NCBI GenBank assembly: GCA_018268515.1
Contig: JAFDWK010000012.1
Span: 1 to 32,168 of the forward strand
Reading direction: 5' to 3'
Source of the DNA: Actinomycetota bacterium
GTDB lineage: Bacteria > Actinomycetota > Actinomycetes > Actinomycetales > Microbacteriaceae
Length of the DNA stretch: 32,168 nt
Shown here: in pieces, positions 1,882 through 25,617 of the stretch
Layout: each line of letters starts with the position of its first letter
How positions within the stretch are numbered: the first letter of the stretch is position 1
Notes under the pieces: model-generated
What the model was told of the DNA's origin: nothing
Databases searched by the model: none
What the model saw: the letters and a program-made list of their open reading frames with translations, nothing else
Program-made: the position numbers and the translations under genes

Positions 1882-1907
1882 GCCCCCGGGACGCCTCCCT
1901 GGGGGCG

Positions 1908-2060
1908 TTGAGCGAGCACCGAGCGTAGCGAGGAGCGAGACGAAACGCGGTGCGCTCGCGAGGCACCGCGTTTCGTCTCAGTCGCCTGCGGCGTCTTCGC
2001 TCAACGACCCTGGGAGAGGGATCGGCGCTTCGCTCGACGACCCCGGGAGAGGGCGGTCCG
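1908..2060. repeat. REP-like palindromic element, copy 2
   Basis: The core is a perfect 17-bp inverted repeat, GAGACGAAACGCGGTGC at 1937-1953 and its complement at 1963-1979, with loop GCTCGCGAG. The right flank runs gtcgcctgcggcgtcttcg, then ctcaacgaccctgggagagg, followed by a second, shorter copy ending cgacgaccccgggagagg. The left flank cgttgagcgag at about 1908 mirrors cgctcaacg on the right. The right half is nearly identical over about 45 nt to the tandem repeat inside hsdM (21911-21964). It sits between two convergent genes and may also serve as a terminator. Confidence 0.85.
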
Positions 2061-10636: not shown

Positions 10637-13600
10637 TCACTGCAAAGCACCCCTGTCGCGGTCCTCTGCGTAGCGCGGCGCCATCGACTCCATCTGGTCC
10701 ATGACGAGCTTGATCGCCTCGGGCTGCTTGTCGGGCGGGTACTTGTACTTCACGAGCAGCCGCTTGATCGAGGAGCGGAGCTTCGCGCGCACGTCGTCAC
10801 GCACCGTCCAGTCCGTGCGCACGTCGCGGCGCATCACCGCGACGAGTTCGCGCGCGATCTGAGCCAGCACATCCTCGCCCTGAACCGACACGGCCGACTC
10901 GTTCTGCGCCACGGCGTCGTAGAAGGCCAGCTCGTCCTGTGACAGCGGCGGTGAGAAGCGCTCGCCGCGCGACGCTTCCGCAGCGACGTCCTTCGCGAGA
11001 GCCACGAGCTCGGCGATGACCTCGGCGGCCGTGAGCTGCTGATTGGTGTAGCGCTTCATGATCTCGGCGATGCGCTCGGAGAATGCGCGTTGCCGCACCA
11101 GGTTGCCCCGGGTCGCCGCGGCTCCCGCCTCGACGAGCGAGGCACGCAACGCCTCGATCGCGAGATGCGGGTTGGGCGCCGCCTGCGCCTTCGCCAGGAA
11201 CTCGGGCCCGAGATCACCGAGCGAAAGCCGCGGCAGCCCCGCCGCATCGTAGATGTCGAGGACGTCTCCCGGCGCGATCGCCTCGGCGACGAGCTGACCC
11301 AGCAGTCGCTGGATGTCATCGGGGATCGGCTCGTCACGGGCCTGGCGCTCGGCCGCGTCGTACTTCGCCATCCAGACGCGCACTTCTTCGTAGAACCCGA
11401 TCTCCTGCCGCAGATCGGCGAGGCTGTCCTGACCGGATGAGAGCGCCCATGCCCGTGCCAGTGCGCCACTGGCCGCGCGGAAGCGGGCCTTGAGCGTCTC
11501 CGGCCCCAGATCCGGGGCGTTGAGCGGGTTGGCGGGGTCGCGGAGGTAGTTCGTGGCCATCGTCGCCGCGGTCCTCCAGCTGCGCGGACCCCCCTTGGCA
11601 ACCACTGCCTCCCAGTCGCAGCCGGCCAGCATGTCGCGGATCAAGAGGATGAGCTCGTCCGCGATCTCCCTCGCCTTCTCGGCGACATCACGGCCGATCG
11701 GGCGGTTCTCCTGATCCGTGGGCGTGTACTCGGCGAGCGCCTTGGCGAGATTGTCGGCCAGGGGCGCGTATGCGACGAGCAGTCCATCTCGCTTGCCACG
11801 GAATGTGCGGTTGACCCGCGCGAGCGTCTGCATGAGCAGCGCGCCCTTGAGCGGCCGGTCGAGATACAGCGTGTGCAGGGGCGGCGCGTCGAAGCCGGTG
11901 AGCATCATGTCTTTGACGATCACGAGTTCGAGCTCGTCTCCCGGATCCTTCAGCCTCTTCTTGATCGCGGCGTTCTCGGAATCGCGGCGCACATGATCGC
12001 TCACCGGGGGCTGGTCGGTCGCACTGCCCGAATAGACGACCTTGATCTTGCCGGCGTCGAGCGCATCGGAATGCCAGTCGGGCCGGAGCGCGACGATCGC
12101 GTCGTAGAGCCGGGCGCAGATCTCCCGGGTGCCACCGACGATGAGCGCCTTGCCCGGCGACTCGATGAACGGGAGCATGCGGGCGCGCCGCTCTTCCCAG
12201 TGGGTGACGAGATCCTTTGCGAGCCGCTCGATGCGCGCCGGCGCACCATAGACGGCGTTGACGACGGCGACGGAGGCCTCGAGCTGTGCCCGCTCGGTGT
12301 CGTCGAGCCCGACCGTGTATTCGTCGGCGGCGCGATCGATGTCCTCCTCGCTCGCGCCCGCCGCGAAGCCCACCTTGAGAAGCCGCGGCTCGAAGTACAC
12401 GGGAACGGTCGCGCCGTCGTCGACGGCACGGGTCAGGTCGTAGATGTCGATGTAGTCGCCGAAGACGTCCTGCGTGTTGCGCTCGGCGAACGAGATCGGC
12501 GTGCCGGTGAACGCGATGAGCGTCGCATGCGGCAGGGCGTCGCGCAGGTGGCGTGCATAGCCGTCGAGGTCGTCGTAGTGGCTGCGATGGGCCTCGTCGA
12601 CGATGAGGATCACGTTGCGACGATCGGTCAGCAGCGGATGCCGGCTCCCCGCCGCCTTCTCGGTCTCACTCAGCCCGAACTTCTGCAGGGTCGTGAAGTA
12701 GATGCCGCCCGTGACGCGGTTGCGCAGCTCGTCGCGCAGCTGCGCCCGCTCGCGCACCTGCACGGGCTTCTCGGCGAGCAGCAGACTGCGATCGAACGTC
12801 GCGAACAGCTGACCGTCGAGCTCATTGCGGTCGGTGACGACGATGATCGTCGGGTTCTTGAGCTTCGCCTGCCGCGACACCAGGTTGGCGTAGAGCTCCA
12901 TCTCCATGGACTTTCCGGATCCCTGGGTGTGCCAGACCACTCCGGCTTTGCCATTCGACTCCACCGCCTGGACCGTTCTGCCGAGGGCCTTCGTCACGGC
13001 GAAGTACTGATGCGGCTTCGCGATGCGCTTGGCAAGTCCGTCAGGTCCTTCATCGAACGCGGTGAAGTTGCGGACGAGCTGCAGGAAGCGCTCCTGGTTG
13101 TAGAGGCCGGCGAGCGCGTCGTCGATCGGCTGCACGTCGTCGCCGAACTCGATGCGCGGCTGTTCCAGGGGCTTGCCGTCGTCGTCGACGTTCCACGGTG
13201 CGAAGTGGTGGAACGGCGTGAACGGCGTGCCGTAGCGGGCGTCGATCCCGTCGCTCGCCAGCGTGAACACGCAGAATCGGAACGCTGCCGGGAACTCGCG
13301 CAGGTACGTCTGCAGCTGTGCGTGCGCAGCGGCAGCCCCGACCCCCGCGGCCCCGGCCCGCTTCAGCTCCATGATGCTGAGCGGCATCCCGTTCACGTAG
13401 AGCACGATGTCGAAGCGCCGATGGAGATCGCCCTGCCGGATCGTCACCTGGTTGACCGCGAGCCAGTCGTTGTCGGACGGATCCGTCGAGAGCAGTCGAA
13501 GTCTCAGGTTCTGCTCGACGCCGTCATCGTCGATGTAGCTCAGCGGGTAGCCACCGACGAGATACGTGTGGATCCGATAGTTCTCGGTGATCGCGTCCTG

Positions 13601-13834
13601 AGAGGTGGGCGTGGCGATCTCGCCGACCGCCTGCTGCAGATACGGCACCGGAACCGCGGGATTGAGCCGGCGGAGCGCCTCGAGCAGCCGCGGCCGGATC
13701 AGCAGTTCGTCCCACGTCTCCCGCTCACCGCTTCCGGGCGCGATCTGCTCACCGCGCAGGGGCCGCCAGTCGAGCGGCTGCGACAGCAGCTCGAGGGCCT
13801 GGTCCTCCCAGTCGGATTCCGCGAACCCGGTCAT
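10637..13834 (-). CDS. hsdR: Type I restriction enzyme R subunit (HsdR)
   Basis: A 1065-aa motor/nuclease subunit of normal length. The N-terminal PD-(D/E)xK nuclease shows Asp142 in RFDIVLYVNG and Glu156-x-Lys158 in MELKRAG. The SF2 translocase has Walker A HTQGSGKS (about 302-309), DEAH at about 413-416, AFTGTP, and LLMQTLARVNRTFRG as motif VI. The C-terminal helical domain, which docks on HsdM2HsdS, is present. All key residues are intact, so it should be active with HsdM and HsdS. The start ATG has an RBS (aaggag, about 8 nt upstream). Unusually, it is more than 6.5 kb from hsdS, with seven minus-strand and plus-strand accessory genes between. It probably has its own promoter in the 54-bp gap shared with the HipA_2 gene. 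Confidence 0.96.
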   Translation of the reverse strand: MTGFAESDWEDQALELLSQPLDWRPLRGEQIAPGSGERETWDELLIRPRLLEALRRLNPAVPVPYLQQAVGEIATPTSQDAITENYRIHTYLVGGYPLSYIDDDGVEQNLRLRLLSTDPSDNDWLAVNQVTIRQGDLHRRFDIVLYVNGMPLSIMELKRAGAAGVGAAAAHAQLQTYLREFPAAFRFCVFTLASDGIDARYGTPFTPFHHFAPWNVDDDGKPLEQPRIEFGDDVQPIDDALAGLYNQERFLQLVRNFTAFDEGPDGLAKRIAKPHQYFAVTKALGRTVQAVESNGKAGVVWHTQGSGKSMEMELYANLVSRQAKLKNPTIIVVTDRNELDGQLFATFDRSLLLAEKPVQVRERAQLRDELRNRVTGGIYFTTLQKFGLSETEKAAGSRHPLLTDRRNVILIVDEAHRSHYDDLDGYARHLRDALPHATLIAFTGTPISFAERNTQDVFGDYIDIYDLTRAVDDGATVPVYFEPRLLKVGFAAGASEEDIDRAADEYTVGLDDTERAQLEASVAVVNAVYGAPARIERLAKDLVTHWEERRARMLPFIESPGKALIVGGTREICARLYDAIVALRPDWHSDALDAGKIKVVYSGSATDQPPVSDHVRRDSENAAIKKRLKDPGDELELVIVKDMMLTGFDAPPLHTLYLDRPLKGALLMQTLARVNRTFRGKRDGLLVAYAPLADNLAKALAEYTPTDQENRPIGRDVAEKAREIADELILLIRDMLAGCDWEAVVAKGGPRSWRTAATMATNYLRDPANPLNAPDLGPETLKARFRAASGALARAWALSSGQDSLADLRQEIGFYEEVRVWMAKYDAAERQARDEPIPDDIQRLLGQLVAEAIAPGDVLDIYDAAGLPRLSLGDLGPEFLAKAQAAPNPHLAIEALRASLVEAGAAATRGNLVRQRAFSERIAEIMKRYTNQQLTAAEVIAELVALAKDVAAEASRGERFSPPLSQDELAFYDAVAQNESAVSVQGEDVLAQIARELVAVMRRDVRTDWTVRDDVRAKLRSSIKRLLVKYKYPPDKQPEAIKLVMDQMESMAPRYAEDRDRGALQ

Positions 13835-13888: not shown

Positions 13889-14722
13889 ATGGATGATGCC
13901 TTCGACTCGCTGGACGCGTGGCGTGGGCGGCTCACCGGCCGGCAAGGGCAGGCACCTACGATCGTTCTCCGTGCGCCGCGTGAACGCGCACGGTCATCTG
14001 GCGCGGGCGCGTTCCTCGGCCTGGCTGACGATGGCCGCACGTACTGGGTGAAGGTGCCAGGCAATCCCCAAGGCGACCAGGTTCTCGTGAACGAAGTGAT
14101 CGTCGGGGAGCTCGGCAGGCTGATCGGAGCACCTGTCCGCGAACGTGTGCTCATCAGGATTCCACCGAGCATCTCCCGATGGGACATGTTCCCCGCCGGC
14201 AGGAGTGACGCACCCCTGATCGCCCACGGCTCGCTGCACGTGCCGGGCGCGATCGACGACGACGACCTGCGGTACACGAGGCGAGACGACAATGCGCGTC
14301 GGCAGTCGGCAATGGTCGCCTTGTGGGACCTTTGCCTCGGTGAGGATCCGCAGTGGCTATACGAGACGACAGCCGCGTACTCGATGTGGTCATACGACCA
14401 CGGTCTGTGGTTCACCACCGGCGAGGGCGACTGGGAGGAGTCCGTGCTTCGCCGTCTCGTAACCACCGACGGCACGTTCCCCCATATCCCCACGGGGCTG
14501 GACCGGCGACGGCTGCTCGACGTCGCCGACGCCATCCTCGGTCTGACTCCGGAAGCGCTCCTGTCGGTGATGTCGGCGGTCCCTGTAGAATGGGGGACCG
14601 ATGACAGGAGCCTCGAAGCGATGGCGTGGTTCCTCTTCCGCCGCCGAGAACCGGTAGCGCAGCGGCTCCGGAGACACGCCGAGGCCCCGTCGGGTGGGCA
14701 AGCGACGGGAACTCCGAAATGA
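13889..14722 (+). CDS. HipA_2-family kinase-like protein
   Basis: A 277-aa protein that I assign to the HipA_2 group of HipA-like kinases. A conserved Lys in YWVKVPGNPQG (Lys55) and a Glu in VNEVIVGELGRLIG (Glu69) fit the ATP-anchoring pair. The later YDHGLWF (Asp170) fits the metal-binding DHG-type motif. The catalytic loop, usually an N-x-D-R-H type, reads LGEDPQWLYE (Asp153), so the Asp is kept but neighbouring residues are unusual. HipA kinases phosphorylate proteins and can act as toxins; whether this one is active is open. It overlaps the DUF3037 gene by ATGA. It has no HipB-like antitoxin next to it; DUF3037 takes that position. Confidence 0.7.
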   Translation: MDDAFDSLDAWRGRLTGRQGQAPTIVLRAPRERARSSGAGAFLGLADDGRTYWVKVPGNPQGDQVLVNEVIVGELGRLIGAPVRERVLIRIPPSISRWDMFPAGRSDAPLIAHGSLHVPGAIDDDDLRYTRRDDNARRQSAMVALWDLCLGEDPQWLYETTAAYSMWSYDHGLWFTTGEGDWEESVLRRLVTTDGTFPHIPTGLDRRRLLDVADAILGLTPEALLSVMSAVPVEWGTDDRSLEAMAWFLFRRREPVAQRLRRHAEAPSGGQATGTPK

Positions 14723-15591
14723 GCAGCGCATACCTCTACTGGCTCGTCAGGTACGTGCCCGATGTGGCGCGCGGCGAGCGGGTGAATGTCGCGGTCGTGG
14801 TCGGCTGCGACGGCGGCGACTGGGCGATCCGGGTCGCGCCCGACCTGCGCCGCGCGAGCAGGCTGGGTGGCGATGCGAGCGCGCTTCAGCCCTGGCTCAC
14901 GAGGCTGGAGCGCACGATCCACGACTACGAGCACCCGCCTCTCGATCTCTTCGCGGGTACCGACGATGTCAGCGTGAACCGGGCCTGGCTGGAGCTGCTC
15001 TCGCATCGTTTCAACAACGTGCTTCAGATCAGTGCGGCAACACCCGTCGAAGCGCTCTCGGCGCAGGACGGTGCCGATTTCCTCTTCCCGTTGCTTGTCG
15101 CGACTCCCGCACCGGTGCGCCGGTCGCGCACTCGCGCCAGGCTCGTGCACGATCTCGGGCAGCTCTACGAGCGCACGGCGAGCCTGGAGGTCGGCACGTC
15201 CCTCCTTCGCCGGCCGGAGGCGCTCACCGGCCGACAGCGAGGGCGCTTCGACTTCGCTGTCGTCGACGACGATGTCGACCAGCTGTCGCAGGCGTTCGCC
15301 TTCGACGTCCGCAATCTCGACACCCTCGAGCAGGAACTGCAGTCGTGGAACTTCGTCGTCAGCCGCGTGCGTGAAAGCGGTGCGTCGATCACGCACGGCT
15401 CGATTCAGCATCGCGCCGCCGCCGGCGTGCCGGTCGCTGTCGCGTTCCAAGAGCCGAGCGCCCGGGACGACCGCCGCTGGGACATCTTCGAGGCCGCGCG
15501 CGAGGCGTGGGCGGCGCTCGATGTCACCGCCGTTCCGAGCACGGAGCTCGATGCGATCGCTCGCGAGGCGCGGGAGCTCGTGCTGGCGTAG
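14719..15591 (+). CDS. DUF3037 domain protein
   Basis: A 290-aa soluble protein, with the start ATG at 14719 overlapping the upstream stop codon. The N-terminal YLYWLVRYVPDVARGERVNV, with NVAVVV following, is the hallmark of DUF3037. The C-terminal half is Arg- and Glu-rich and helical. Function is unknown. From general knowledge, HipA_2 and DUF3037 genes tend to occur together, which together with the 4-nt overlap suggests that the two work as one unit, perhaps kinase and partner or immunity protein. The position between hsdR and the rest of the island points to defence or addiction. Confidence 0.75.
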   Translation: MSSAYLYWLVRYVPDVARGERVNVAVVVGCDGGDWAIRVAPDLRRASRLGGDASALQPWLTRLERTIHDYEHPPLDLFAGTDDVSVNRAWLELLSHRFNNVLQISAATPVEALSAQDGADFLFPLLVATPAPVRRSRTRARLVHDLGQLYERTASLEVGTSLLRRPEALTGRQRGRFDFAVVDDDVDQLSQAFAFDVRNLDTLEQELQSWNFVVSRVRESGASITHGSIQHRAAAGVPVAVAFQEPSARDDRRWDIFEAAREAWAALDVTAVPSTELDAIAREARELVLA

Positions 15592-15603
15592 CACCGGGCC
15601 TGC

Positions 15604-15640
15604 TACGGGGCCGCCCAGGAGGGCTCCAGGGCCCCCCGTA
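15604..15640 (+). terminator. GC-rich hairpin after the DUF3037 gene
   Basis: TACGGGGCC and GGCCCCCCGTA pair imperfectly around a 17-nt loop, starting 13 nt after the stop. No T-run follows. It is a probable terminator, on position and stability alone. Confidence 0.45.
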
Positions 15641-15670
15641 CCGACGGCGGGATCAGTCATCGAATCCGCA

Positions 15671-15748
15671 ATGCGCGCACCGGCAGGCGCGTACACGGAC
15701 GGGTCCGGAACCATTGATCCACCTTTCATGTTCGCGCCGAAGAAGTAA
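15671..15748 (+). CDS. possible 25-residue peptide or 3' remnant ending in the shared palindrome
   Basis: The ATG at 15671 opens a 25-codon frame whose C-terminus reads GTIDPPFMFAPKK and ends at TAA (15746-15748). It has no convincing RBS. The ending 'AAG AAG TAA' forms one arm of the palindrome at 15737-15777, whose other arm provides 'AAG AAG TAG' for a minus-strand frame. It could be a real small peptide, the tail of a deleted gene, or chance. Low confidence. Confidence 0.2.
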   Translation: MRAPAGAYTDGSGTIDPPFMFAPKK

Positions 15749-15777
15749 CCCAAACGGCGTTTGACCTACTTCTTCGG
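15737..15777. terminator. bidirectional hairpin between converging genes
   Basis: CCGAAGAAGTA (15737-15747) and TACTTCTTCGG (15767-15777) are perfect complements. Inside lies a second short stem, CAAAC-ggc-GTTTG (15751-15763), separated from the outer stem by a symmetric 3x3 internal loop. It sits between the plus-strand DUF3037 gene and the minus-strand GTPase gene, so it most likely terminates both. Confidence 0.65.
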
Positions 15778-15827
15778 ATCCTTTTGCAAACTCTGGCCCA
15801 TCGCGTCGAGCAGTTCGGGCGGTCGCG

Positions 15828-17000
15828 TCACGACTTCCCCACTTTCTGCTCGGCGATCTTGCGGACGACCTCGAGGAACGACGGGGCGTACTGCCCCCAG
15901 GCGTCGCCGATCTTGGCCGGGTCGAGTTTGCCGGTATGCACCTGCTCGCACAGCCGGAGCCAGCCTTCGCCCGTCGCCGCGGTGAGGGCGAAGGCGATGC
16001 CGGCGTTGAGCATGCTCCCCGCACCCGGAATGAGCTTCAGGAAGCTGCGGGCGAGGGCCTGCCCGCTGATCTGCACGCCGAGCTGCGCCAGGGCGCCGGC
16101 CGACATCATGGTCTTGAGCTCAAGGTCGTAGATCGCGGCGATGCGCCCCATCATCGCGAGCTGGATCGGCGCCAGAAGGGCGGCGTCTGCGACCGGAACC
16201 GGGACAGCAGCCGCTGCGGCCGCGGCAGAGGCGGCGGTTCCGATGACGGGCCGGGCCATCTCCCGCTTCCAGGGGAGGTTGAGCCGCTGCGCGATGCGAA
16301 AGGCATCCTTCTCGTCCTCAGGCGAGAGGGCGAGGGTCTCCGCGACGAGCTCACCGAGGCCATGCCCCGTGCCCTTCCCGTGCTTGTCGCGGGTCGAGGT
16401 GAGCATGACTCGTTCATAAGGCACCGTGATCGGCTCGCCCGTGTCGCGGTCGGTCGGATGCTCCAGCCAGTCGACGAAGGATTCGAGGTCTTTCGTGACG
16501 CCGTACTTGCCGGTGATCGGGTTCCGGATCCAGTCGACCTTGGTCAGCACGAGAACAACAGGGAGCCCCGCGGCATCCAGCTCTCGGATCATCGCGATCG
16601 CCGCGGGTGTGAGGCGGTCGCTGGTCGAATGCACGCAGTACCAGACCACCGAGATCTGCTCGTTGGCGGGGCGGGCGGAGATCATCGCCAGGTGCTCACG
16701 CAACTGGGCCGCCGGCGACTGAGTGGATCCGATCTCGAACCCCTCGATATCCCAGATGCCGAGGGAGTCGTCGTGGAAGTAGTGCACGCCGCGAGTCACG
16801 GGCATGCCCTTGCCGACCTCGGCCCAGTCCCGCTGGAACACGGCGTTCACCAGGGATGACTTGCCGACGCCGGAGTCGCCGATGATCGCCAGGTTGAACC
16901 GGCCGTACCGGGACTTGGCCTCGGCCGTCGCCTCGATGAACGGCTTGTCATCGAAGCCACGGAGGCCGTCGGGAGCGTCATCGAGGTTGCTCGTCGTCAT
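15828..17000 (-). CDS. IRG/Era-like GTPase with hydrophobic C-terminal domain
   Basis: A 390-aa P-loop GTPase. G1 is GDSGVGKSS (about residues 41-49), G2 is probably Thr69 in PVTRG, G3 is DIEGFE (84-89) and G4 is TKVD (153-156). After about residue 245 comes an Ala-rich, amphipathic region with AALLAPIQLAMMGRIAAIYD and FLKLIPGAGSMLNAGIAFAL, as in GTPases carrying a DUF697-type membrane-binding tail. It probably acts at the membrane. The start ATG at 17000 lies 16 nt downstream of the DUF4230 gene, with aagga upstream. A coding-like frame continues out of phase for 23 more residues, from about 15841 down to 15767, suggesting a 3' frameshift. It is the last gene of the long island operon. Confidence 0.82.
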   Translation of the reverse strand: MTTSNLDDAPDGLRGFDDKPFIEATAEAKSRYGRFNLAIIGDSGVGKSSLVNAVFQRDWAEVGKGMPVTRGVHYFHDDSLGIWDIEGFEIGSTQSPAAQLREHLAMISARPANEQISVVWYCVHSTSDRLTPAAIAMIRELDAAGLPVVLVLTKVDWIRNPITGKYGVTKDLESFVDWLEHPTDRDTGEPITVPYERVMLTSTRDKHGKGTGHGLGELVAETLALSPEDEKDAFRIAQRLNLPWKREMARPVIGTAASAAAAAAAVPVPVADAALLAPIQLAMMGRIAAIYDLELKTMMSAGALAQLGVQISGQALARSFLKLIPGAGSMLNAGIAFALTAATGEGWLRLCEQVHTGKLDPAKIGDAWGQYAPSFLEVVRKIAEQKVGKS

Positions 17001-17016
17001 CCTTGCCGTCCTTCTG

Positions 17017-17682
17017 TCAGTTGCTCGGCTGCGAAAGCGCGAAGTCGAACGAGAGCTTTGCGTCGGGTTCGATGCTCGACACGATCCTCGTGTAAAACTT
17101 CTGGGCTTGTATCTCCAGGAGCGGGCGCACGCCATCAATGTGCTTGGCCGCGGCGGCTTCCGTGAGGAGTTCCTTGCTCGCCTTCAAGGTGTCGATCTGA
17201 GGCGTGGTCCAGCTCAGGATCCCGTTCGACTCCGTGGCGACTCGGAAAATAGGATCCGGTCCGTAACCGAGGAACTTGAATGTGGGAATGCTGATCTCGT
17301 ACGACTTGTCGCCGAGTTTCCGGATGCGGACGTCTTTGCCCTCGATTCCGTACTTCGCGTCGTAGTCGTAGCGGAGGAACGTCGTCCGATCGCTGAGCGG
17401 AATGTCGAAGAGCCCGAAGAAGCTCTGATTGTCCTTCATCTCCTTGATATCGGTGATGCCCGTGGTGACGAGGATCACCTGTTCCTCACCCTTGACGGAG
17501 CGCACCACCTGGACGTCCCGCAGTTCCTGCGCGCCGAGGACCCTGCCCACCATCAGACCCATGGCGGCCGCACCGCCACCGATGAGGATGATGAGCAGGA
17601 TCACCAGCCAAGCGGGCATACGGCGTCGACTCGTGGCAGGAATGGTCATTCGTGGAGCGTCCTCACTCTTCGGTGGAGTCAT
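17017..17682 (-). CDS. membrane-anchored DUF4230 protein
   Basis: A 221-aa protein with a short basic N-terminus, one membrane helix (about residues 24-46) and an outward-facing domain of the DUF4230 type. Recognisable parts are VQVVRSVKGEEQVILVTTGI, YDYDAKYGIEG, and FKFLGYGPDPIFRVATES. Function is unknown. The ATG at 17682 overlaps the end of higA by 20 nt; a second ATG at 17649 (MTIPATS) would remove the overlap and leave 13 nt. Neither has a strong RBS. The tight spacing on both sides places it in one operon with higA and the GTPase gene. Confidence 0.8.
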   Translation of the reverse strand: MTPPKSEDAPRMTIPATSRRRMPAWLVILLIILIGGGAAAMGLMVGRVLGAQELRDVQVVRSVKGEEQVILVTTGITDIKEMKDNQSFFGLFDIPLSDRTTFLRYDYDAKYGIEGKDVRIRKLGDKSYEISIPTFKFLGYGPDPIFRVATESNGILSWTTPQIDTLKASKELLTEAAAAKHIDGVRPLLEIQAQKFYTRIVSSIEPDAKLSFDFALSQPSN

Positions 17683-18760
17683 CTGAGCCGCCCGTGCGGC
17701 CCGGCAAAGGCATGAACTCGATCCGGGTCTTCAGCTCATGTCCCCACGCGTAATCATGGCTCAGATGCTGCGCGCGACCGAGCACGATGCTCGGGGCGAT
17801 GCCCCACTCGCCTGCGAGAGCGCGGATTGCGACAAGGTCCCGCCGATGCGGGAGCCGATGCTCTTCGGCAACCGGGATCAGCACCTCTGACGCGTACCGG
17901 TCGGCTTCGCGCTCTGCCTCGGTGCCATCGCCCTCGAGGTAGAGCTCGCGGTCGCCGTGGAGCATCACGTGGCCGAGCTCGTGGAACAGTGTGAACCAGA
18001 GCTGGTCGTCGCTCTTCCACAGCAAGGAGAGCTGGATGACGGGGCGCCCGTTGACCCAGCGCGTCGCCCCGTGGATCCCGAGACCCGGGACAGCGGGGAT
18101 CAGGCACAGCACGACGCCGACCGCGCGCAGCGCCGCGGCTGCCGCCTCGATCGCGATCACCGGATCCTCCCGGGTGGAACGACGCAGCTCGGGGATCAGC
18201 GACTCCAGCCCCTCGCGGTCGAACGCGGGGACGTCGTGCAGTCCGTCATGATGGCGCTCGGCGAGCGCGAGCCAGGTGACCAGCGCCTCGCTGTGATCCC
18301 TCGCGATCGCCGACCGGCGATAGGCGACGGCTCCTTCACGCCACGTGACCTCGAACGCGTCCAAGCTCGCGACGCCGAGAATCGCAAGCAGCTGACGCAC
18401 GGTCTCCGCACGGTCGCGGGATCCGGCCGTGATGTACGACCACTTGCGCAGGTACGACAGCGGGAATGCCCTGGCAGCTTCGTACTGGCGTTCCAGGTCG
18501 GCAACCTCCTGAAGCCGTGCGAGGTCTTCGCGGTAACCGCTCTCGTACTGATTCCAGATGCGCGCGGGCACGCCCGTGACGCGCTCGAGGGCGAGCGCGA
18601 GCGCGTGCGACAGCGGCGCCTTGCCATGCAGCAGCTCGCTGACATGCTTACGGCTCACGCCGAGCCGACGGGAAAGCTCAGCCGCATTGATCCCCTCAGC
18701 CTCCATCCACTCCGAGATGAAGTCGCCGGTGGTGACGACATAGTTCGGCTGTGCAGTCAT
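17663..18760 (-). CDS. higA: HigA-type antitoxin fused to ImmA/IrrE metallopeptidase domain
   Basis: A 365-aa protein. The N-terminal 15-70 region is an XRE/HigA helix-turn-helix: INAAELSRRLGVSRKHVSEL, then LLHGKAPLSHALALALE and the HigA-typical GVPARIWNQYESGYRE. The second half holds an ImmA/IrrE (COG2856) zinc protease with HELGH at 260-264 and a probable third ligand near residue 285 (EREADRYASEVLIP). It represses its promoter and neutralises HigB; the protease half could cleave a regulator or itself. It follows higB by 13 nt. Compared with plain HigA proteins of about 100 aa it is a long, two-domain form. Confidence 0.88.
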   Translation of the reverse strand: MTAQPNYVVTTGDFISEWMEAEGINAAELSRRLGVSRKHVSELLHGKAPLSHALALALERVTGVPARIWNQYESGYREDLARLQEVADLERQYEAARAFPLSYLRKWSYITAGSRDRAETVRQLLAILGVASLDAFEVTWREGAVAYRRSAIARDHSEALVTWLALAERHHDGLHDVPAFDREGLESLIPELRRSTREDPVIAIEAAAAALRAVGVVLCLIPAVPGLGIHGATRWVNGRPVIQLSLLWKSDDQLWFTLFHELGHVMLHGDRELYLEGDGTEAEREADRYASEVLIPVAEEHRLPHRRDLVAIRALAGEWGIAPSIVLGRAQHLSHDYAWGHELKTRIEFMPLPGRTGGSDDSTEE

Positions 18761-18773
18761 CTCTCCACTCCCT

Positions 18774-19073
18774 TCAGCGTCGGTGATAGTCCACGATCTC
18801 GAGCACGAGAACCGTCACGATCTCGCGATCCGCAGGAGTGACGATGAGGCGCCAGTTCGCGGTCAATCGCGCCGACCATTCCCCTATCCGATCCCCGGTC
18901 AGCTGCTCCCAGCGGCCCGTGCCCCGCAGCAGGTCATCCATCTGCATGGAGCGTCTCAGTTCGGCGATCCGCAGCTTCAGCGTCTTCGCGACCTGCGCGC
19001 CGAGCTTCTTCTGCATGGCGCGTTCGTCGGTGCAGGTCTTCTCGAGCTCTCGCGTCGCGTACTCCAGCTCCAT
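18774..19073 (-). CDS. higB: HigB/RelE-family toxin
   Basis: A 99-aa protein of the plasmid-maintenance killer family: an N-terminal helix LEKTCTDERAMQKKLG, then LAxLR-like KLRIAELRRS, MDDLLRGTGRWEQLTGDR, and the C-terminal strands TANWRLIVTP and VLEIVDYHRR with the conserved Arg75 and Tyr96-His97. HigB toxins are ribosome-dependent mRNA interferases. The gene order toxin then antitoxin is characteristic of higBA. The ATG at 19073 is directly abutted by a perfect palindrome, so the mRNA is nearly or fully leaderless. Confidence 0.88.
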   Translation of the reverse strand: MELEYATRELEKTCTDERAMQKKLGAQVAKTLKLRIAELRRSMQMDDLLRGTGRWEQLTGDRIGEWSARLTANWRLIVTPADREIVTVLVLEIVDYHRR

Positions 19074-19094
19074 GTGTTACCTAAATCGTAACAC
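19074..19094 (-). promoter_or_regulatory. higBA operator/promoter palindrome
   Basis: GTGTTAC (19074-19080) and GTAACAC (19088-19094) are perfect 7-bp arms around 7 nt. On the coding strand the site reads ...TTACGATTTAGGTAACAC followed immediately by the higB ATG, and contains the -10-like TACGAT. A HigA dimer bound here would block the promoter, giving autoregulation. It marks a second promoter inside the island operon. Confidence 0.65.
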
Positions 19095-19181
19095 GGCTGG
19101 GTTCGGATGGAAAGGGCCTGATTCGCATCACCATTCGAGCCTCCGCTTCCGTGCGTCCTGCGATCCCGCCGGTCGGACGCC

Positions 19182-19727
19182 TCATTCGCGCGCCTTCAGG
19201 TACAGGACGAGCCCGCCGAGAGCGAACGCGAGAACGACGGCACCGACCGTCGCGGGGATCCAGGACGCGAACCGGTTCAGGGCGTCGCACCCCGCCCCGA
19301 TGAGCACGCCTGCGCCGATGATGATCGCGGGGACATAACCCGCCCAGGACAGGGGAGAACCACCCAGTTGCACGGCGCCCCACCACAAGAAGAACAGGGC
19401 GACTGCGACCCAGGGGATCACCACCCACCACACGACCGGGTGCGTGTAGACATGGCGCATCATCGTCGCGGGCAGGATCAGCAGCACCCCCGCGGCGCCG
19501 ACCACCGCGACGACGAGGAGGACCCACAGGAGCCTGCCGTGTCGCGCTTCGTTCGCATACGCGGCCGCGAAAGGGGCAGCAAGGGCGACCAGAATCGCCG
19601 CGATTCCGATCGCCACCGCGATGAGCCATCCCCAGACGGTCCAGTCTTTGACGAACTGGACGGCGACGTCCTCTGTCCGGATCCGCAGCAGCGCGTTCGT
19701 CGTTGTCATCACGTGGTCGTGGTTCAT
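19182..19727 (-). CDS. five-helix membrane protein of unknown function
   Basis: A 181-aa integral membrane protein with predicted helices at about 31-57, 65-87, 97-117, 128-147 and 156-177. I recognise no family. The start ATG at 19727 has a ggggggaa RBS about 5 nt upstream; a second ATG seven codons in is possible. It follows the 250-aa membrane protein by 43 nt and precedes the higB operator by about 87 nt. The context suggests a membrane component of the island. Confidence 0.7.
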   Translation of the reverse strand: MNHDHVMTTTNALLRIRTEDVAVQFVKDWTVWGWLIAVAIGIAAILVALAAPFAAAYANEARHGRLLWVLLVVAVVGAAGVLLILPATMMRHVYTHPVVWWVVIPWVAVALFFLWWGAVQLGGSPLSWAGYVPAIIIGAGVLIGAGCDALNRFASWIPATVGAVVLAFALGGLVLYLKARE

Positions 19728-19770
19728 GATTCCCCCCGGAAGTCAGGTGTTTGTTGTGCTCGGTCAGATT

Positions 19771-20523
19771 TCAGACGGATGGGTCTGCCGGACGGTCGGG
19801 CTCGTCATCGACCCAGATGTCGGTATCGATCTCGATTCCACTGGGACGAACCGGCAGACCGAAGAAATTGCGTTCGATACGCACCCGCTTGCTCACCCGA
19901 GACGCGTCAGCTTTCGTTCGGGCGCTGAGCTTCTTGCGAGCGTTGTGGTGTGAGCGCCACTCGTCATACCGACGCAGCACTCGCCACGGGTCTGCACGCA
20001 CCAGGTTGCTGTGCCCCTTCCGTCCGGCCGCGACCAGCGCGTTGAATCGGGCTGTGACCACCGTGTCAGCGAGAACCGCCGCGATCTCGCACCCGAGAAG
20101 CACGATCAGGGCGACTGCCGCGGTGAACGCGAGCACCCCGGATCTCTCCACCAGCCACCAGGTGCCGAAGATCAGGGTGAAGGGCACGAACACCCAGAAC
20201 CCCATCCAGAACGGCCGTGCAGGATCGGGCCCTATTCGTCGCAGGGCCTCGTGCGCCTCGACCATGATGCGCGCCTCGGTGGCGCGGAGATCAAGCTGCT
20301 CGGCCTCGGGACCGGCCGGCATGTCTTTGCGCTGAGCCAGCGCTTCGGCGTGGCGTGAGCGCCAGTACTTGCTCGAGGTCGGCGAGCCGCGCAGACCGCT
20401 CGATTGGGCCGAGATCCATCCCGGCAGCTTGTTGATAAGCCAGAGAAGAACCGGCGTCGCGATGAGGACAGGGATCGCCCAGGCACCGAGGGTCGAACGA
20501 GCCCACTCTTCGTAGGCGCTCAC
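19771..20523 (-). CDS. three-helix membrane protein coupled to hsdS
   Basis: A 250-aa protein of unrecognised family. Predicted membrane helices are at about 11-32, 105-124 and 129-151. Between helices 1 and 2 lies a charged helical segment (SKYWRSRHAEALAQRK, AEQLDLRATEARIMVEAHEA), and the C-terminal 95 residues are basic (RRYDEWRSHHNARKKLSART), then acidic. The start GTG at 20523 overlaps the hsdS stop in GTGA, so its translation depends on hsdS. This coupling is the strongest clue that it works with the restriction-modification complex or shares its regulation. Confidence 0.72.
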   Translation of the reverse strand: MSAYEEWARSTLGAWAIPVLIATPVLLWLINKLPGWISAQSSGLRGSPTSSKYWRSRHAEALAQRKDMPAGPEAEQLDLRATEARIMVEAHEALRRIGPDPARPFWMGFWVFVPFTLIFGTWWLVERSGVLAFTAAVALIVLLGCEIAAVLADTVVTARFNALVAAGRKGHSNLVRADPWRVLRRYDEWRSHHNARKKLSARTKADASRVSKRVRIERNFFGLPVRPSGIEIDTDIWVDDEPDRPADPSV

Positions 20524-21683
20524 GTCGCCGCCTCGACGATCTTCTCGGCGTCGCGAACGCGAAGTTTGCCCGACATGAGCTGCGGGAGCAGCGCGTCGCG
20601 GGTGGAGGCGAGGGTGCGGTTCTCCTCAGTCAGCGCGCGAACGGATCCAAACACCGCACCAACCGTTTGCTCCAGGGCCGTCAACTGGCTTTCAGCAGGC
20701 ACCACCAAGCCAAGACGACGCGCCTGTCCCATGCTCAGCTTTGGCTGCACTGCGCCCGTAACGAGCGCGGACACATCAGCCTGTCGAAGCATGACCGATA
20801 GAAGCTCGGTACTGACCTTCGTGCCCGTAAGAACGTGCGCATGATTGTTCACCCAGGCGGGGCCCCACACGTAGTGAACGTACGGACTTCCGTCGGACCG
20901 GCAGACGGATCCGTCCTCTCCAAGCAGAACGATCGGCTCGTCAAACAACGGGGCATCGACCGTGCCCATCTGTCCGTTGGCGCCGTAGTACGGGATGACG
21001 CCGCGACGTTCAGCGCGACCGGCAGCCGAGAGTGGTACACGTCGCCGATTATGAAAGGCCGCGACATCGCCGAGAGTGCGGTCGTTCCCAGCGCCCACCG
21101 CCGCAACGTAGGACACATTCAGAAAGGCTTCCGCGGCACTCTTAGCGGCCGTGTTCGCGGCGATCTTGTCGTCGAGGGCGCCCAACACCTCGGCGATTGC
21201 CTGCTGCTCGGGAAGCGGCGGGAGAGGAATCTCGAGTTCCGACAGGATCCCCAAGTTCGTGTGCGGCACGCCGGTCGAGATCGCACGGTCATCAATCTGC
21301 TGGAGGAAGTCATCACTCGTCGATGCGTAGTAGACGAACTCCGGGATAGCACGATCGCGGTCCACCCGAAGTCTCATCTGGCTCTGCGAGACGACGAGCT
21401 GCTGAGGGCCACTGCTCGGGACGAGTGCAACCTGACCGAGCGTCCCGCGCTGGGTATAGATCACATCTCCAGCCATCGCGGCGTTTCGAGAAAGGTCTCG
21501 CGCGAACTTTTCCGCGGACACGAAGACGAACTCGCCGCCTACGTAGCGACCCTCATTCAAATTCGTCCCACGAATCACGGGCACACCTGACTCCGCATAG
21601 TCGGCATTGACCAAGGACGATCCAAATGGGCCACCTACAAGTCCGCGATCGGCCGCGACTTGAGCGAGCGGTTGACGATTCAC
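20520..21683 (-). CDS. hsdS: Type I restriction-modification specificity subunit (HsdS)
   Basis: A 387-aa DNA-recognition subunit with the expected two half-repeats. TRD1 spans about residues 1-155 and ends with IPLPPLPEQQAIAEVLGALD, the first conserved helix. TRD2 spans about 205-335 (HNRRRVPLSAAGRAERRGVI, PYYGANGQMG) and ends in the second conserved helix (LTALEQTVGAVFGSVRALTE, then RDALLPQLMSGKLRV). It sets the bipartite target for HsdM and HsdR; the target cannot be read from sequence. It starts with GTG overlapping the hsdM stop (GTGA). Its DNA is visibly less GC-rich than its neighbours, as expected for exchanged target-recognition domains. Confidence 0.94.
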   Translation of the reverse strand: MNRQPLAQVAADRGLVGGPFGSSLVNADYAESGVPVIRGTNLNEGRYVGGEFVFVSAEKFARDLSRNAAMAGDVIYTQRGTLGQVALVPSSGPQQLVVSQSQMRLRVDRDRAIPEFVYYASTSDDFLQQIDDRAISTGVPHTNLGILSELEIPLPPLPEQQAIAEVLGALDDKIAANTAAKSAAEAFLNVSYVAAVGAGNDRTLGDVAAFHNRRRVPLSAAGRAERRGVIPYYGANGQMGTVDAPLFDEPIVLLGEDGSVCRSDGSPYVHYVWGPAWVNNHAHVLTGTKVSTELLSVMLRQADVSALVTGAVQPKLSMGQARRLGLVVPAESQLTALEQTVGAVFGSVRALTEENRTLASTRDALLPQLMSGKLRVRDAEKIVEAAT

Positions 21684-23455
21684 GACACCCTCCCCAGCTG
21701 CTCGCGCACCACATCCGCCAGGCGAGCGGACTCGGCGAACTGGGCTTCGAGCTCGGTGCGCAGGCGGGCGAGCTTCTCCTGGATGGGCTCGCCGTCGTCC
21801 TCGACCTCGGCGGCGCCGACGTAGCGGCCCGGGGTCAGGGCGTAGTCGGCGGCCTTGATCTCGGCGAGGGTTGCGGAGTAGCAGAAGCCGGGGATGTTCT
21901 CGTAGGGATGCGGCGTTTCGTCTCGGTCGCCTTCGGCGTCCTCGCTCAACGACCCCGGGGGGAGGTCGCCTTCGGCGTCCTCGCTCAACGACCCCGGGGG
22001 GAGGGTGCCGGCGGCGTCCTCGCTCAACGACCCCGAGTGCGTTTCGTCTCGCTGCGCTCGCTCAGGGACCGGGTTCATCCAGGCGTGGAAGGTGCTGGCG
22101 ATCCTGGCGATGTCCTCGTCCGAGAGGGCGCGCTCGGCGCGGTCGACCATGTGCCCGAGCCCCCGAGCGTCGATGAAGAGCACCTGGCCGGCGCGGTCAC
22201 CCTTGTCCTTCGCGAAGAACCATACGCACACCGGGATCCCCGTCGAACGGAAGAGCTGCGTCGGCAGGGCGACCATGCACGAGACCAGATCCGCCTCGAC
22301 GATCTCCGCGCGGATCTGCCCCTCTCCGCCCGAATTCGACGACATCGACCCGTTGGCCATGACCACACCGGCCTGCCCGTCCGGGGCGAGCTTCGACAGG
22401 ATGTGCTGGATCCACGCGTAGTTCGCGTTGCCTGCCGGCGGCACGCCGTACTTCCACCGCGGGTCGTCCTCGTTGCGCGCCCAGTCCTTGATGTTGAACG
22501 GCGGGTTCGCCATCACGAAGTCCGCGCCCTTGTCGCCGGTCAGCTCAGGGTGCAGGTCGCGCGCGAACGTGTCGCCCCAGCGCGGGCCGAGGTTGCCCGA
22601 GAGCCCGTGGATGGCCAGGTTCATCTTCGCCATGCGCCAGGTGCGCTCGTTGAGCTCCTGCCCGTAGACGGAGATGTCGGATCCCTCGCCGTGGTGCGCG
22701 TCGATGAACTTCTCGGCCTGCACGAACATCCCGCCGGATCCGCACGCCGGGTCGTACACGCGCCCGTGCGTGGGCTGCAGCAGCTCGACGAGCACCCGCA
22801 CGACACTGGCCGGCGTGTAGAACTCCCCGCCCCGCTTGCCCTCGGCCGCGGCGAACTTCTCCAGGAAGTACTCGTACACCTCGCCGAGCAGGTCGCGGGC
22901 GCGCCGACCCGACTCACCTGCCTGCCCCTGCCCGGCGAACCGCGCCGAATTGAACAGGTCGATCAGCTCGCCCAGCCGGCGCTGGTCGACGTTGTCGCGG
23001 TTGAAGATGCGCGGCAGGGTGCCGGACAGTTGCGGGTTCGCCTGCATGAGGCCTTCCATCGCCTCATCGATGAGCGAACCGATCGATCGGATCCCCTCGC
23101 CGAAAGCCGGATCCAGCCCCTTCGCGTTCTCGGCCAGGAAGGCCCACCGTGCCCGCGCCGGCACCCAGAACACGCCTCGGCCGGTGTACTCGTCGGTGTC
23201 GTCGATGAGCTCCGCGATCTGATCGTCGTCGTAACCGTCGGCGGTGAGTTCGTCGCGGATCCGGTCCCGGCGCTCGTCGAATGCGTCCGACACGTACTTG
23301 AGGAACACGAGACCGAGGATCACGTCCTTGTACTGAGACGCGTCCATCGATCCACGCAGCTTGTCGGCGGCCTTCCAGAGCGTGTCTTTGAGCTCCTTCA
23401 TGGTCGACGGAGCCTGGGGAGCGGCTTTCTTCGTACGCGGCATGATTCCCTTCAT
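21680..23455 (-). CDS. hsdM: Type I restriction-modification methyltransferase subunit (HsdM) with repeat insertion
   Basis: A 591-aa N6-adenine methyltransferase. The N-terminal HsdM helical domain spans about 15-160, the AdoMet motif I is DPACGSGG (235-242) and the catalytic motif IV is NPPF (317-320). Residues about 464-516 are an insertion with three copies of the theme GSLSEDAEGDLPP between HAWMNP and YENIPGFC, which are close together in ordinary HsdM. The insertion is encoded by REP-like DNA and lies in a surface linker after the catalytic domain, so activity may be kept. The ATG at 23455 overlaps the preceding stop (ATGA); a second ATG at 23443 has an SD-like aaggga and could be the true start. 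Confidence 0.95.
   Translation of the reverse strand: MKGIMPRTKKAAPQAPSTMKELKDTLWKAADKLRGSMDASQYKDVILGLVFLKYVSDAFDERRDRIRDELTADGYDDDQIAELIDDTDEYTGRGVFWVPARARWAFLAENAKGLDPAFGEGIRSIGSLIDEAMEGLMQANPQLSGTLPRIFNRDNVDQRRLGELIDLFNSARFAGQGQAGESGRRARDLLGEVYEYFLEKFAAAEGKRGGEFYTPASVVRVLVELLQPTHGRVYDPACGSGGMFVQAEKFIDAHHGEGSDISVYGQELNERTWRMAKMNLAIHGLSGNLGPRWGDTFARDLHPELTGDKGADFVMANPPFNIKDWARNEDDPRWKYGVPPAGNANYAWIQHILSKLAPDGQAGVVMANGSMSSNSGGEGQIRAEIVEADLVSCMVALPTQLFRSTGIPVCVWFFAKDKGDRAGQVLFIDARGLGHMVDRAERALSDEDIARIASTFHAWMNPVPERAQRDETHSGSLSEDAAGTLPPGSLSEDAEGDLPPGSLSEDAEGDRDETPHPYENIPGFCYSATLAEIKAADYALTPGRYVGAAEVEDDGEPIQEKLARLRTELEAQFAESARLADVVREQLGRVS
21908..22066 (-). repeat. REP-like tandem repeat inside hsdM
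   Basis: Two exact 39-nt units at 21926-21964 and 21965-22003 and a diverged third from 22004, flanked by 'gcgtttcgtctc' on both sides (about 21913 and 22040). The unit, gtcgccttcggcgtcctcg then ctcaacgacc and a G-run, matches the right half of REP-like element 2 (1971-2020) almost base for base. The 39-nt length is a multiple of three and the frame stays open, encoding repeats of 13 residues (GSLSEDAEGDLPP). Confidence 0.9.
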
Positions 23456-25422
23456 CGCGGGTCGGGCGCCGCGTCTGCGGCGTCATCGGTGATCGAGACG
23501 CGACCGGCGACGATTCCGGCCGCGAGCAGTTCTGCGTAAGTGTCCAGCGCTTCGATGCGTCGCGCGAGTGCATGCTGCCGTGCGGCGATATCGGCGAGCG
23601 CGGATCCCAGCACCGCGCGCGTGTGCGGGGGCACACGCCGCAGCATCCAGCGCCGCCAGGATCCGGCACCACCGGTCGAACGGGCGATGTCGGCCGCCAC
23701 CAGAGCCGGCACGAGCCCGCCCGGATCGTCGGGGTCGATCCGCAGCACCCGCGCGGGGTAGGCGACGACCTTGGATCCGTCGGGGTCGACCCATGCGCGC
23801 GGTGACGGCGCCGTGCGGAAGACGACGTCACCCGGGAGCGTCAGCTGAGCCGAAGCATGGGCTGCGGCGAAGGCGAACGGGTCGACGCGCTTCGCGCCGA
23901 TCGACACCTCATGGTCGAGGTCATCCGCGTCGACGACGACGAGTCCGCGGTCGCCGAACTCATCCGATGCCAGCCGGACCCCGGCTCGCACGCGCAGGTG
24001 GCGCTCCGCGATGAGCGTCTCGACGGTCGCCGTCGGTACGGTCTGCTCCTCACCCGTCCGCAGCGCATGCGCCGGGGCATCTTCGCCGAGCTCCCCACGG
24101 GACGCGTCGAGGAGCGCCGGCAGATCACCGGAGAAGAAGGGCTCGTCCGCGCGGGCCGACGACGGCGGCACCAGCGGACCACGGGCCGCGATGAGCGAAC
24201 TGGTGCGCACCAGCCGGGTGAAGCGGAACGCATGCGCCCGGACATCTCGCACCCGCCCCATCGCAGCCATGACGTCGCTCACCAGATCCGCGCGCGCGGC
24301 CGACGTGAGCGGCATCCCGGCCAGGTCGGCGACGGCGGTGAAACGTTCCGCCACGGGCAGATCCGCCGCCTCCCTCCCCAGGATCCACATCGCGAGCGCC
24401 TCGCGGGGCGCCGACTGCACCAGACCCTCCGGCAGCTTCACGATCGCGCGCACACGACCCGAACGCAGCACATCCGCACGCCCCCCGGCGTCGGTGGCGG
24501 GCACACCATCGGTGAGGGCCGCCGCAGGCGCGATGACCATCGCCCGGTCACGCTCCCGCATTCCGAGAGAGACCTCGTCGAGCGCACGCAGCATGTCGGC
24601 GACCGACCGGATCCCGGCCGCGGGCAGGCGCACGACGTGCATCTGCGGATCGGCGCCGCCGTGCTCACCGATCCGAAGTGCGATCCCCTCGCTCAGCAGG
24701 CGACGGCGGAGGTCACGCCGTTCCGGAAGCGGTGCGACGCCGAGATCGACGCCCTCACGCACCTGCACCATCCGGACGGCGAGCGCGGGCCCGATCCCCC
24801 CGCTCAGGACGAGCTCGGACTCGTGCTCGCCGGCAAGTGCGTGCGCCATCGCGAGGAACAGATCCTCCGCATCGGCAGTGAACGGCCCCGCCGATCCGTG
24901 CGCGGACCGCATCGCGACATGGCGGCGCTCCAGCAGGCGTGCGGCCCCGAGCGGCGAGTACGCCGCATCGGCGAGCAGGTCGGCCCAGCGCGCCCACGCG
25001 GTGCGGCTCGCCGACAGCTCGGTCAGCAGGCTCGCGTCTTCGGGATCGAAATCACGGGCCCGGCTGCGGAGCTCGTCGAGCGTGACCTCGCCGACGGCCT
25101 CGCCCGACAGAGCGCGCAGCGTGAGCAGCGCGTCGACCACGGCCAGATGTGCCGAGTCGGCGACGTCGAAGTCGGCCGGCGCTGCTGCCGCGGCCGAATC
25201 GGCCACCGCATCGGCGTTGTTGCCGTGGCCGGTGCGCTCGAGCCAGTGCGCGACGTCGATCGCGTCGAACATCGACCGCCCGCTCTTCTCCGCCACGACC
25301 GGCGGGAACGCATCGTCGGATCCCGCGAAGCGCGTGCGCCAGACGGATGCCACGGGGCGCCGCACGTCGGCCAGCCGGGCTACCCCGGCCAGGTCGATGA
25401 GGAGCGGTGCACGCGTGGTCAT
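23452..25422 (-). CDS. HsdM-like protein lacking recognisable methyltransferase motifs
   Basis: A 656-aa protein with the start ATG at 25422 (MTTRAPLLIDLAGVARLADV). The N-terminal 8-35 region looks like a helix-turn-helix of MerR/excisionase style. The middle resembles N6-methylases of the HsdM type (AMVIAPAAALTDG, GRVRAIVKLPEGLVQSAPRE), but I find neither a D/NPPY/F motif nor a G-x-G AdoMet motif; the expected place reads FTADAEDLFLAMAHAL. The C-terminal part (VVVDADDLDHE onward) is a possible specificity-like or structural domain. It overlaps hsdM by ATGA and so heads the operon. It may be a regulatory or DNA-binding accessory to HsdM. A frame running upstream to 25614 crosses the promoter and was rejected. 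Confidence 0.72.
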   Translation of the reverse strand: MTTRAPLLIDLAGVARLADVRRPVASVWRTRFAGSDDAFPPVVAEKSGRSMFDAIDVAHWLERTGHGNNADAVADSAAAAAPADFDVADSAHLAVVDALLTLRALSGEAVGEVTLDELRSRARDFDPEDASLLTELSASRTAWARWADLLADAAYSPLGAARLLERRHVAMRSAHGSAGPFTADAEDLFLAMAHALAGEHESELVLSGGIGPALAVRMVQVREGVDLGVAPLPERRDLRRRLLSEGIALRIGEHGGADPQMHVVRLPAAGIRSVADMLRALDEVSLGMRERDRAMVIAPAAALTDGVPATDAGGRADVLRSGRVRAIVKLPEGLVQSAPREALAMWILGREAADLPVAERFTAVADLAGMPLTSAARADLVSDVMAAMGRVRDVRAHAFRFTRLVRTSSLIAARGPLVPPSSARADEPFFSGDLPALLDASRGELGEDAPAHALRTGEEQTVPTATVETLIAERHLRVRAGVRLASDEFGDRGLVVVDADDLDHEVSIGAKRVDPFAFAAAHASAQLTLPGDVVFRTAPSPRAWVDPDGSKVVAYPARVLRIDPDDPGGLVPALVAADIARSTGGAGSWRRWMLRRVPPHTRAVLGSALADIAARQHALARRIEALDTYAELLAAGIVAGRVSITDDAADAAPDPR

Positions 25423-25426
25423 GCGG

Positions 25427-25454
25427 CCAATGTACCGACATCCTTCGACATTGG
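25427..25454 (-). promoter_or_regulatory. promoter and inverted repeat at the head of the island operon
   Basis: On the minus strand TACATT (25434-25429) lies 6 nt before the ATG at 25422, giving a leaderless start. The same box is the inner part of ACATTGG/CCAATGT, a perfect 7-bp inverted repeat at 25427-25433 and 25448-25454. An operator over the -10 box would allow repression, possibly by the helix-turn-helix domain of the first gene product. Confidence 0.5.
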
Positions 25455-25617
25455 ATGGATTTCGTTGATAACCCCCATTATCGGTGGGTGTGCGAGCCTT
25501 ATCGGTTGTCTGCGCCACGCTCATCTCGGCAGCGTCTGACCGCTGCTGCGACAGGCGGGGATCTGCTGGGGAGTCACCCGCCTGTCGGTTCCCCCACCTC
25601 CCCGAACGGAGCACGAC
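25455..25617 (+). promoter_or_regulatory. leader of the lipoprotein gene with 11-bp hairpin
   Basis: TTATCGG occurs twice, once after 'cccccat' and again 24 nt later (about 25479-25510). CGACAGGCGGG (25549-25559) and CCCGCCTGTCG (25577-25587) are perfect complements with a 17-nt loop, ending 30 nt before the ATG at 25618. The hairpin could be an attenuator or a stabilising 5' structure. No clear -35/-10 pair was seen. Confidence 0.4.

Follow-up and report, generated by a model that had tools for sequence, protein, structure and literature searches.

The modification gene hsdM of a type I restriction-modification (R-M) locus in a Microbacteriaceae genome (assembly GCA_018268515.1) raises the question of how a conserved methyltransferase comes to contain DNA of a repeat family that lies mostly between genes. 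The gene was analyzed within a window of 32,168 nucleotides, the whole of the stretch under study (contig JAFDWK010000012.1, positions 1 to 32,168; Table 1). A preliminary description had proposed that a single intergenic element resembling repetitive extragenic palindromes (REP), encoding about 53 residues, was captured in frame within hsdM and then duplicated in tandem in 39-nt units. The in-frame capture and its place are borne out: from FHAW (residues 456 to 459) to PGFC the protein has 62 residues, compared with 11 to 15 in insert-free relatives, the excess of 47 to 51 residues lies between FHAW and YENIPGFC (residues 518 to 525), and the hsdM sequence is repeat-derived over approximately 21914 to 22070. 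The insert consists, however, of two elements rather than one; element A is a complete short-form repeat, whereas element B is an extended version of this repeat, arrayed in 39-nt units over its first part, so that the tandem duplication is confirmed for the array but accounts for only part of the insert, element A being separate. The array has 94% matches in Tandem Repeats Finder (TRF) with a score of 194, the top of 33 rows for the window; its first two units differ at four bases, whereas the second and third have the same first 31 nt. We consider it highly probable that non-autonomous palindromic repeats have been captured in this linker again and again and persist wherever frame and loop permit. 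They would work as Rickettsia palindromic elements do, although they are shorter and no REP-associated tyrosine transposase (RAYT) was detected.

The repeat origin of the insert is evident from its distribution in the 3.71-Mb draft genome. By BLAST (E ≤ 0.001), the linker DNA has 59 matching places, hsdM included and mostly intergenic, and a 19-mer with up to three mismatches is found at 52 places compared with 2 for the reversed pattern, indicating that the repeat number is far above chance; the 39-nt unit assigned to hsdM in the preliminary description thus occurs elsewhere in the genome as well. The match to an intergenic element that it had pointed out is also recovered, at 1968-2047 with 83% identity (E 3.6e-16, over query 83 to 168), and closer copies are found at C37:7490-7536 (96%) and C109:9864-9930 (88%). 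The intergenic composite has a strong predicted hairpin (-112.2 kcal/mol, z -5.27 for 1880-2060); a scan of 1800-2100 found no T-tailed terminator around it, and no Rfam family reaches its gathering score anywhere in the window. Unlike this element, the copy inside hsdM is predicted to fold no better than shuffled sequences (z -0.34), and a hairpin role for it was rejected. A second intergenic composite with related repeats lies at about 755-950, between the ORF at 31-693 and the gene at 1093, and includes a degenerate 24-nt array (873-950).

A total of 62 repeat places, comprising 58 of the 59 BLAST places (hsdM excluded) and 4 found by pattern only, were classed by context with a simple codon-usage gene caller: 23 lie between convergent, 19 between tandem, and 2 between divergent gene pairs, 3 at contig edges, and 15 inside ORFs, neighboring places not being independent, and the pattern-only places inside ORFs at C8 and C74 probably being chance. 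This bias toward gene 3' ends, together with the strong hairpin of the intergenic composite, marks the repeat as REP-like; it has the traits of REPs and bacterial interspersed mosaic elements, namely, a size of 20 to 40 bp, multiple copies, intergenic location near gene 3' ends, and some opposite-orientation pairs. The core repeat pattern is present in 213 of 366 Microbacterium genomes, and the reversed-control columns are zero.

The insertion had been expected to be absent from homologues, and here the relatives of HsdM gave a different answer. The genome under study is assigned to Microbacterium: L177, from a genome of the same genus, shows full identity across 4608 bases to L091, a record named as Microbacterium. 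A search of the 366 Microbacterium genomes with an insert-free HsdM yielded 41 with a match at E ≤ 1e-100, of which the 29 closest share 83 to 100% identity with the query and the other 12 share 51 to 58%. Among the 29, short linkers (11 to 15 residues, 15 sequences) are accompanied by long ones (25 to 71 residues, 14 sequences), and 13 of the 14 long linkers are recognizably repeat-derived when their codons are read by eye, with differing contents. The same repeat family is present in 12 of the 14 (our own sequence, G070, G339, G093, G200, G049, G042, G090, G316, G315, G156, and G221), with four units in G070, two in tandem in G339, and an additional TTCGACAGGCTC-type repeat in G049; in G248 the linker palindrome is another one (GGTCGAG...TATCGAGACC kind), and the long linker of G295 is not assignable to a family. 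Repeat-derived linkers occupy the same HsdM site in three or more further genera, a minimum because either G443 or G434 might belong to Agromyces, with TTCGACARGCTC-type repeats in Agromyces bauzanensis (L093), Krasilnikoviella flava (L146), and G443, and a GGTCGAG-type repeat in G434. By our reading, in which the family labels were assigned by us, three unrelated repeat families appear to have used this site. The GSLSEDAEG repeats themselves are present in none of the homologous linkers displayed, in keeping with the preliminary description. Among 80 named loci, the linker pattern failed in L120, L126, L133, L138, L140, L143, L145, and L165 and overran in L144, and all of these were left out; the distant HsdM L077 to L090 and L217, L223, and L224 are also outside the linker counts, and the L280 linker was read by eye. 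Insert-free linkers such as SAVEAGLTY (Arthrobacter-like HsdM L095, L096, and others) resemble a worn-down TTCGACAGGCTC-type repeat (VEPVEA), and from this resemblance the ancestral linker might itself be an old capture.

Some sister sequences do share inserts, identical in G315 and G316 and with one unit in common in G200 and G093, as would be expected if one ancestral insert had been inherited and had decayed differently in each species. Nevertheless, the family, frame, number, and order of the inserts differ. On a tree of 45 HsdM built without the linker (LG+G4, partial L199 counted as insert-free), moreover, the long-linker trait requires 15 changes, and branches with good support force at least 9 of them; its clustering does not exceed that of shuffled labels (mean, 14.3 changes). 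These changes and the differing contents indicate many separate captures and speak against a single inherited insert, a reading that was rejected and to which we attach next to no probability; losses or replacements are possible besides captures.

Why this linker was filled so often might alternatively be explained by site-specific targeting, for example, the enzyme or its DNA attracting repeats. Long linkers are found in 14 of the 29 close but 0 of the 12 distant HsdM (p 0.003, uncorrected for relatedness), none of which has an insert although some are from repeat-rich genomes. Against this stand the three unrelated families read at the site, a second loop (KDKG) in the G221 HsdM (L198) that also took up a TTCGACAGGCTC-type repeat (GALLEPVEGSRGG), and a loop of a PfkB-family sugar kinase, whose inserts are repeat-derived by eye in 3 of 24 parsed sequences, including two other genomes (149 genomes searched, 38 with a match, loci for 30 of the 38, linkers parsed in 24 of the 30). 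Targeting of hsdM is therefore very unlikely in our estimation.

HsdM is one clear case of a wider capture of repeats in proteins. In the same genome, in-frame repeats are found in the PfkB-family kinase (L025:835-2019, minus strand), with two 100% identical 60-nt units in one loop, in two ABC proteins, and at the C terminus of a nitrate reductase beta subunit; for cases at the N terminus, the start calls leave doubt. The repeat of the oligopeptide-type ABC protein lies between its two ATPase domains. HsdM, the kinase, and the two ABC proteins keep their domains despite the repeats. The kinase loop of L025 also contains, by eye, a TTCGACAAGCTC-type repeat, and different inserts are present in other species; an ABC fusion (L019:2-3019, plus strand), CydDC-like by our reading, has a linker of about 110 residues that seemingly consists mostly of several repeat families in both orientations.

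Five of the six reading frames of the repeat are open. All 13 orientable HsdM lineages carry it in one orientation, in the VVERAQRDET and SLSERSETKR frames; orientation was counted by eye with near-identical sisters merged, and 3 of the 18 insert rows (L183, L194, and L205) are not orientable. These two frames are the most hydrophilic (mean hydropathy of -1.35 and -1.92, compared with +0.51, -0.30, and -0.43 for the reverse frames), and, assuming no mechanistic bias, the chance figures for such uniformity are 0.5^13 = 1.2e-4 and 0.4^13 = 6.7e-6. In other proteins of the same genome, repeats are seen by eye in both orientations, indicating that the process of insertion does not dictate orientation.

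These observations can be joined into a mechanism. The HsdM insert consists of two short palindromic repeats, non-autonomous and from a family widespread between Microbacterium genes, and both sit in the loop that joins the final helix of the methyltransferase core to the C-terminal segment. Copies would land at many places and would persist in a gene only with an open frame, a hydrophilic peptide, and a loop tolerant of length; since the HsdM linker offers all three, it has received repeats independently many times, and adjacent units would then have duplicated in frame-keeping steps. The analysis establishes the origin of the insert from repeats, its recurrence, its site and frame, and the purifying selection acting on HsdM, whereas disorder in the actual protein, near-neutrality, and continued enzyme activity are inferred.

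The enzyme itself bears no visible mark of decay. Type I HsdM is recognized in the protein by its HsdM_N and N6_Mtase domains, its catalytic and S-adenosylmethionine motifs, and its HsdS and HsdR partners, and N317, P319, F320, D235, P236, and G239 are invariant in 56 aligned rows. HsdM is under purifying selection, with dN/dS (nonsynonymous to synonymous substitution rates) of about 0.1, a rough value because dS is 0.58 to 0.90. Type I restriction itself depends on HsdM, and a dead HsdM means that both activities are lost. Because of the intact motifs, the low dN/dS, and this dependence, the consequence for self-restriction raised earlier carries little weight. HsdM apart from the insert is predicted to fold normally and the insert to be disordered; the inserted peptide most likely serves as a disordered spacer that hardly affects activity; it would be nearly neutral, and the enzyme would probably remain active. 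Length variants of the 39-nt array among strains, which the preliminary description had entertained, are plausible, but on/off phase variation was rejected as unlikely, since 39 is a multiple of three and the unit keeps the frame.

A functional role for the linker deserves consideration here, in which its repeat-encoded length would tune the packing of HsdM on HsdS, and hence restriction versus modification, while slippage would vary the number of units. In the protein, the linker separates the methyltransferase core from the C-terminal helix 558-590, and the corresponding region of EcoKI and EcoR124I HsdM touches HsdS; the two identical units of the PfkB kinase suggest recent change; and the periods of all five coding arrays (39, 60, 39, 60, and 57, the start of L229 being uncertain) are divisible by three. 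However, four of the nine intergenic array periods (24, 33, 36, 84, 28, 28, 28, 58, and 166) are divisible by three as well, and the two sets are not clearly different (p 0.086); arrays of 41 nt (L239) and 18 to 27 nt (L011, L014, L231, and L239), in whose units the repeat was not seen, are outside the nine. The array periods thus fit selection for frame without proving it. Short linkers are also no rarer than long ones (15 of 29), the inserts are conserved neither in length nor in content, and the same happens in unrelated proteins, which together make a tuned linker quite unlikely. Somewhat less improbable, though we would still bet against it, is the broader proposal that the HsdM linker serves as an evolvable landing pad, where intergenic palindromic repeats supply spacers that differ in number and type from species to species, change fast, and adjust the restriction/modification balance, the repeats being more generally a source of new disordered linkers in Microbacteriaceae proteins.

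Recurrent capture of palindromic repeats remains the explanation we favor. Core repeats are more numerous in insert-bearing genomes, with a median of 11.5 compared with 0 in insert-free genomes (two-sided p 0.014, phylogeny ignored; copies inside hsdM subtracted by hand). Besides the roughness of dN/dS and the unclear contrast between coding and intergenic periods, several points weigh against this explanation. A phylogeny-aware form of the abundance comparison has only 5 pairs and is underpowered (mean of 1.7 in the same direction and 0.0 in the opposite, median p 0.5). Two repeat-rich genomes have an insert-free HsdM (G170, 154 copies; G028, 67), and two insert-bearing genomes, G295 and G339, are without the core pattern; G339 holds a variant, and its insert DNA matches 3 places in G339, 7 in G200, 30 in G093, and 17 in G248 (copies in hsdM included), with no match in six insert-free genomes and none in the insert-bearing G295 and G316. 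Linker exchange between species could mimic independent insertion, and the uniform orientation could come from oriented insertion instead of selection. There is no clear target-site duplication by eye at the linker inserts. Finally, PF01797, the Y1 transposase family of RAYT, has no match in our genome or in 12 others, drafts that may be incomplete, whereas it matches 5 of 14 control genomes; transposition by RAYT was rejected for lack of a match in these 13 genomes, and some other process would move the repeats.

The hsdM gene stands within a complete R-M locus (Table 1). An ORF of 720 residues (23452-25614, minus strand) with neither a Pfam nor a PADLOC match overlaps the hsdM start by four bases and is probably co-transcribed with it. 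Eight called ORFs between hsdS and hsdR (13889-20523) make up a possible defense island inside the locus. Their products include a helix-turn-helix/IrrE-like metalloprotease resembling PD-Lambda-2_B (1.9e-29), a GTPase that carries DUF697, and a DUF3037 protein; a further match, HipA-like, is weak and under its cut-off.

Table 1. Positions of the hsdM insert, its component repeats, and related features in the window
Feature	Positions	Strand	Evidence
Expanded HsdM linker, residues 461-517 (NPVPERAQ...DETPHP), NPVPERAQRDETHSGSLSEDAAGTLPPGSLSEDAEGDLPPGSLSEDAEGDRDETPHP	21905-22075	-	Comparison with insert-free relatives
Element A, complete 32-nt short-form repeat GGTCCCTGAGCGAGCGCAGCGAGACGAAACGC, read VPERAQRDET in another frame	22039-22070	-	Matches many other genomic places (BLAST)
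39-nt tandem array, 2.8 copies, read SLSEDAAG / SLSEDAEG / SLSEDAEG	21925-22035	-	TRF
Right end of element B, CGAGACGAAACG, read RDET	21914-21925	-	Codon-level reading
hsdM, type I R-M modification subunit, 591 aa, with repeat-derived linker	21680-23455	-	Pfam HsdM_N 6.8e-27, N6_Mtase 2.9e-109; PDB 3khk_A E 9.6e-136
hsdS, overlaps end of hsdM	20520-21683	-	Pfam Methylase_S 7.4e-21; PADLOC Specificity_I 3.5e-59
hsdR, 1065 aa, reading frame open	10637-13834	-	Pfam HSDR_N, SWI2_SNF2, T1RH-like_C; PADLOC REase_I 5.6e-234
Intergenic composite repeat, copies in both orientations, between convergent genes	1885-2053	.	BLAST, fold prediction

Protein-coding palindromes, known chiefly from Rickettsia and a number of other genomes, have long raised the question of whether they amount to tolerated noise or to material on which protein evolution draws. 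One orthologous loop that is empty or filled across dozens of sequenced species, by several repeat families, amounts to a replicated natural experiment, which bears on the frames, orientations, and lengths that survive and on their effect on enzyme activity. Annotators should take peptides such as SLSERSETKR and VVERAQRDET, where they occur in these proteins, for repeats in translation and not for motifs.

Among known systems, the HsdM of M. mazei (3khk_A) leaves 5 residues (498-502) unaligned opposite 57 (463-519) of the present HsdM. Phase-variable R-M genes (phasevarions) have a tandem repeat inside the methyltransferase gene, and hsdM likewise holds one; unlike in those genes, its 39-nt unit preserves the frame. 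Ogata et al. reportedly described Rickettsia palindromic elements in protein-coding genes in 2000 and 2002. According to the part of PMC10969869 considered here, these elements are about 150 bp long and located in protein-coding genes. The present repeats are similarly palindromic, intergenic, and in frame within ORFs of unrelated, likely functional proteins, but the Microbacterium units are of about 32 to 43 nt and lie in Actinobacteria; a further difference from the elements as that part presents them is that one HsdM site has been refilled across species, by three repeat families in our reading. GTAG and CGTC REPs, as presented in the examined parts of PMC3733652, also occur in frame within ORFs, single or grouped, with clusters encoding 43 to 82 residues in some; flexible linkers or loops are proposed there as neutral sites, and the CGTC REPs are apparently without a dedicated transposase. 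The Microbacterium repeats resemble them in being short, single or grouped, and in frame within ORFs. The main text of PMC3733652 (supplements excluded) makes no mention of Microbacterium, Actinobacteri, Arthrobacter, restriction, or methyltransferase, and repeated capture at one orthologous site is absent from its examined parts; among the PMC papers searched, we found none on these actinobacterial repeats, the repeat strings matching only papers unrelated by title. Protein-coding palindromes in Rickettsia (PMC10969869, in part) and intragenic GTAG/CGTC REPs with linkers as neutral sites (PMC3733652, in part) are thus already known. What is new, as far as the searched PMC papers show, is the actinobacterial repeats and the fact that several repeat families have been captured time and again at a single orthologous site.
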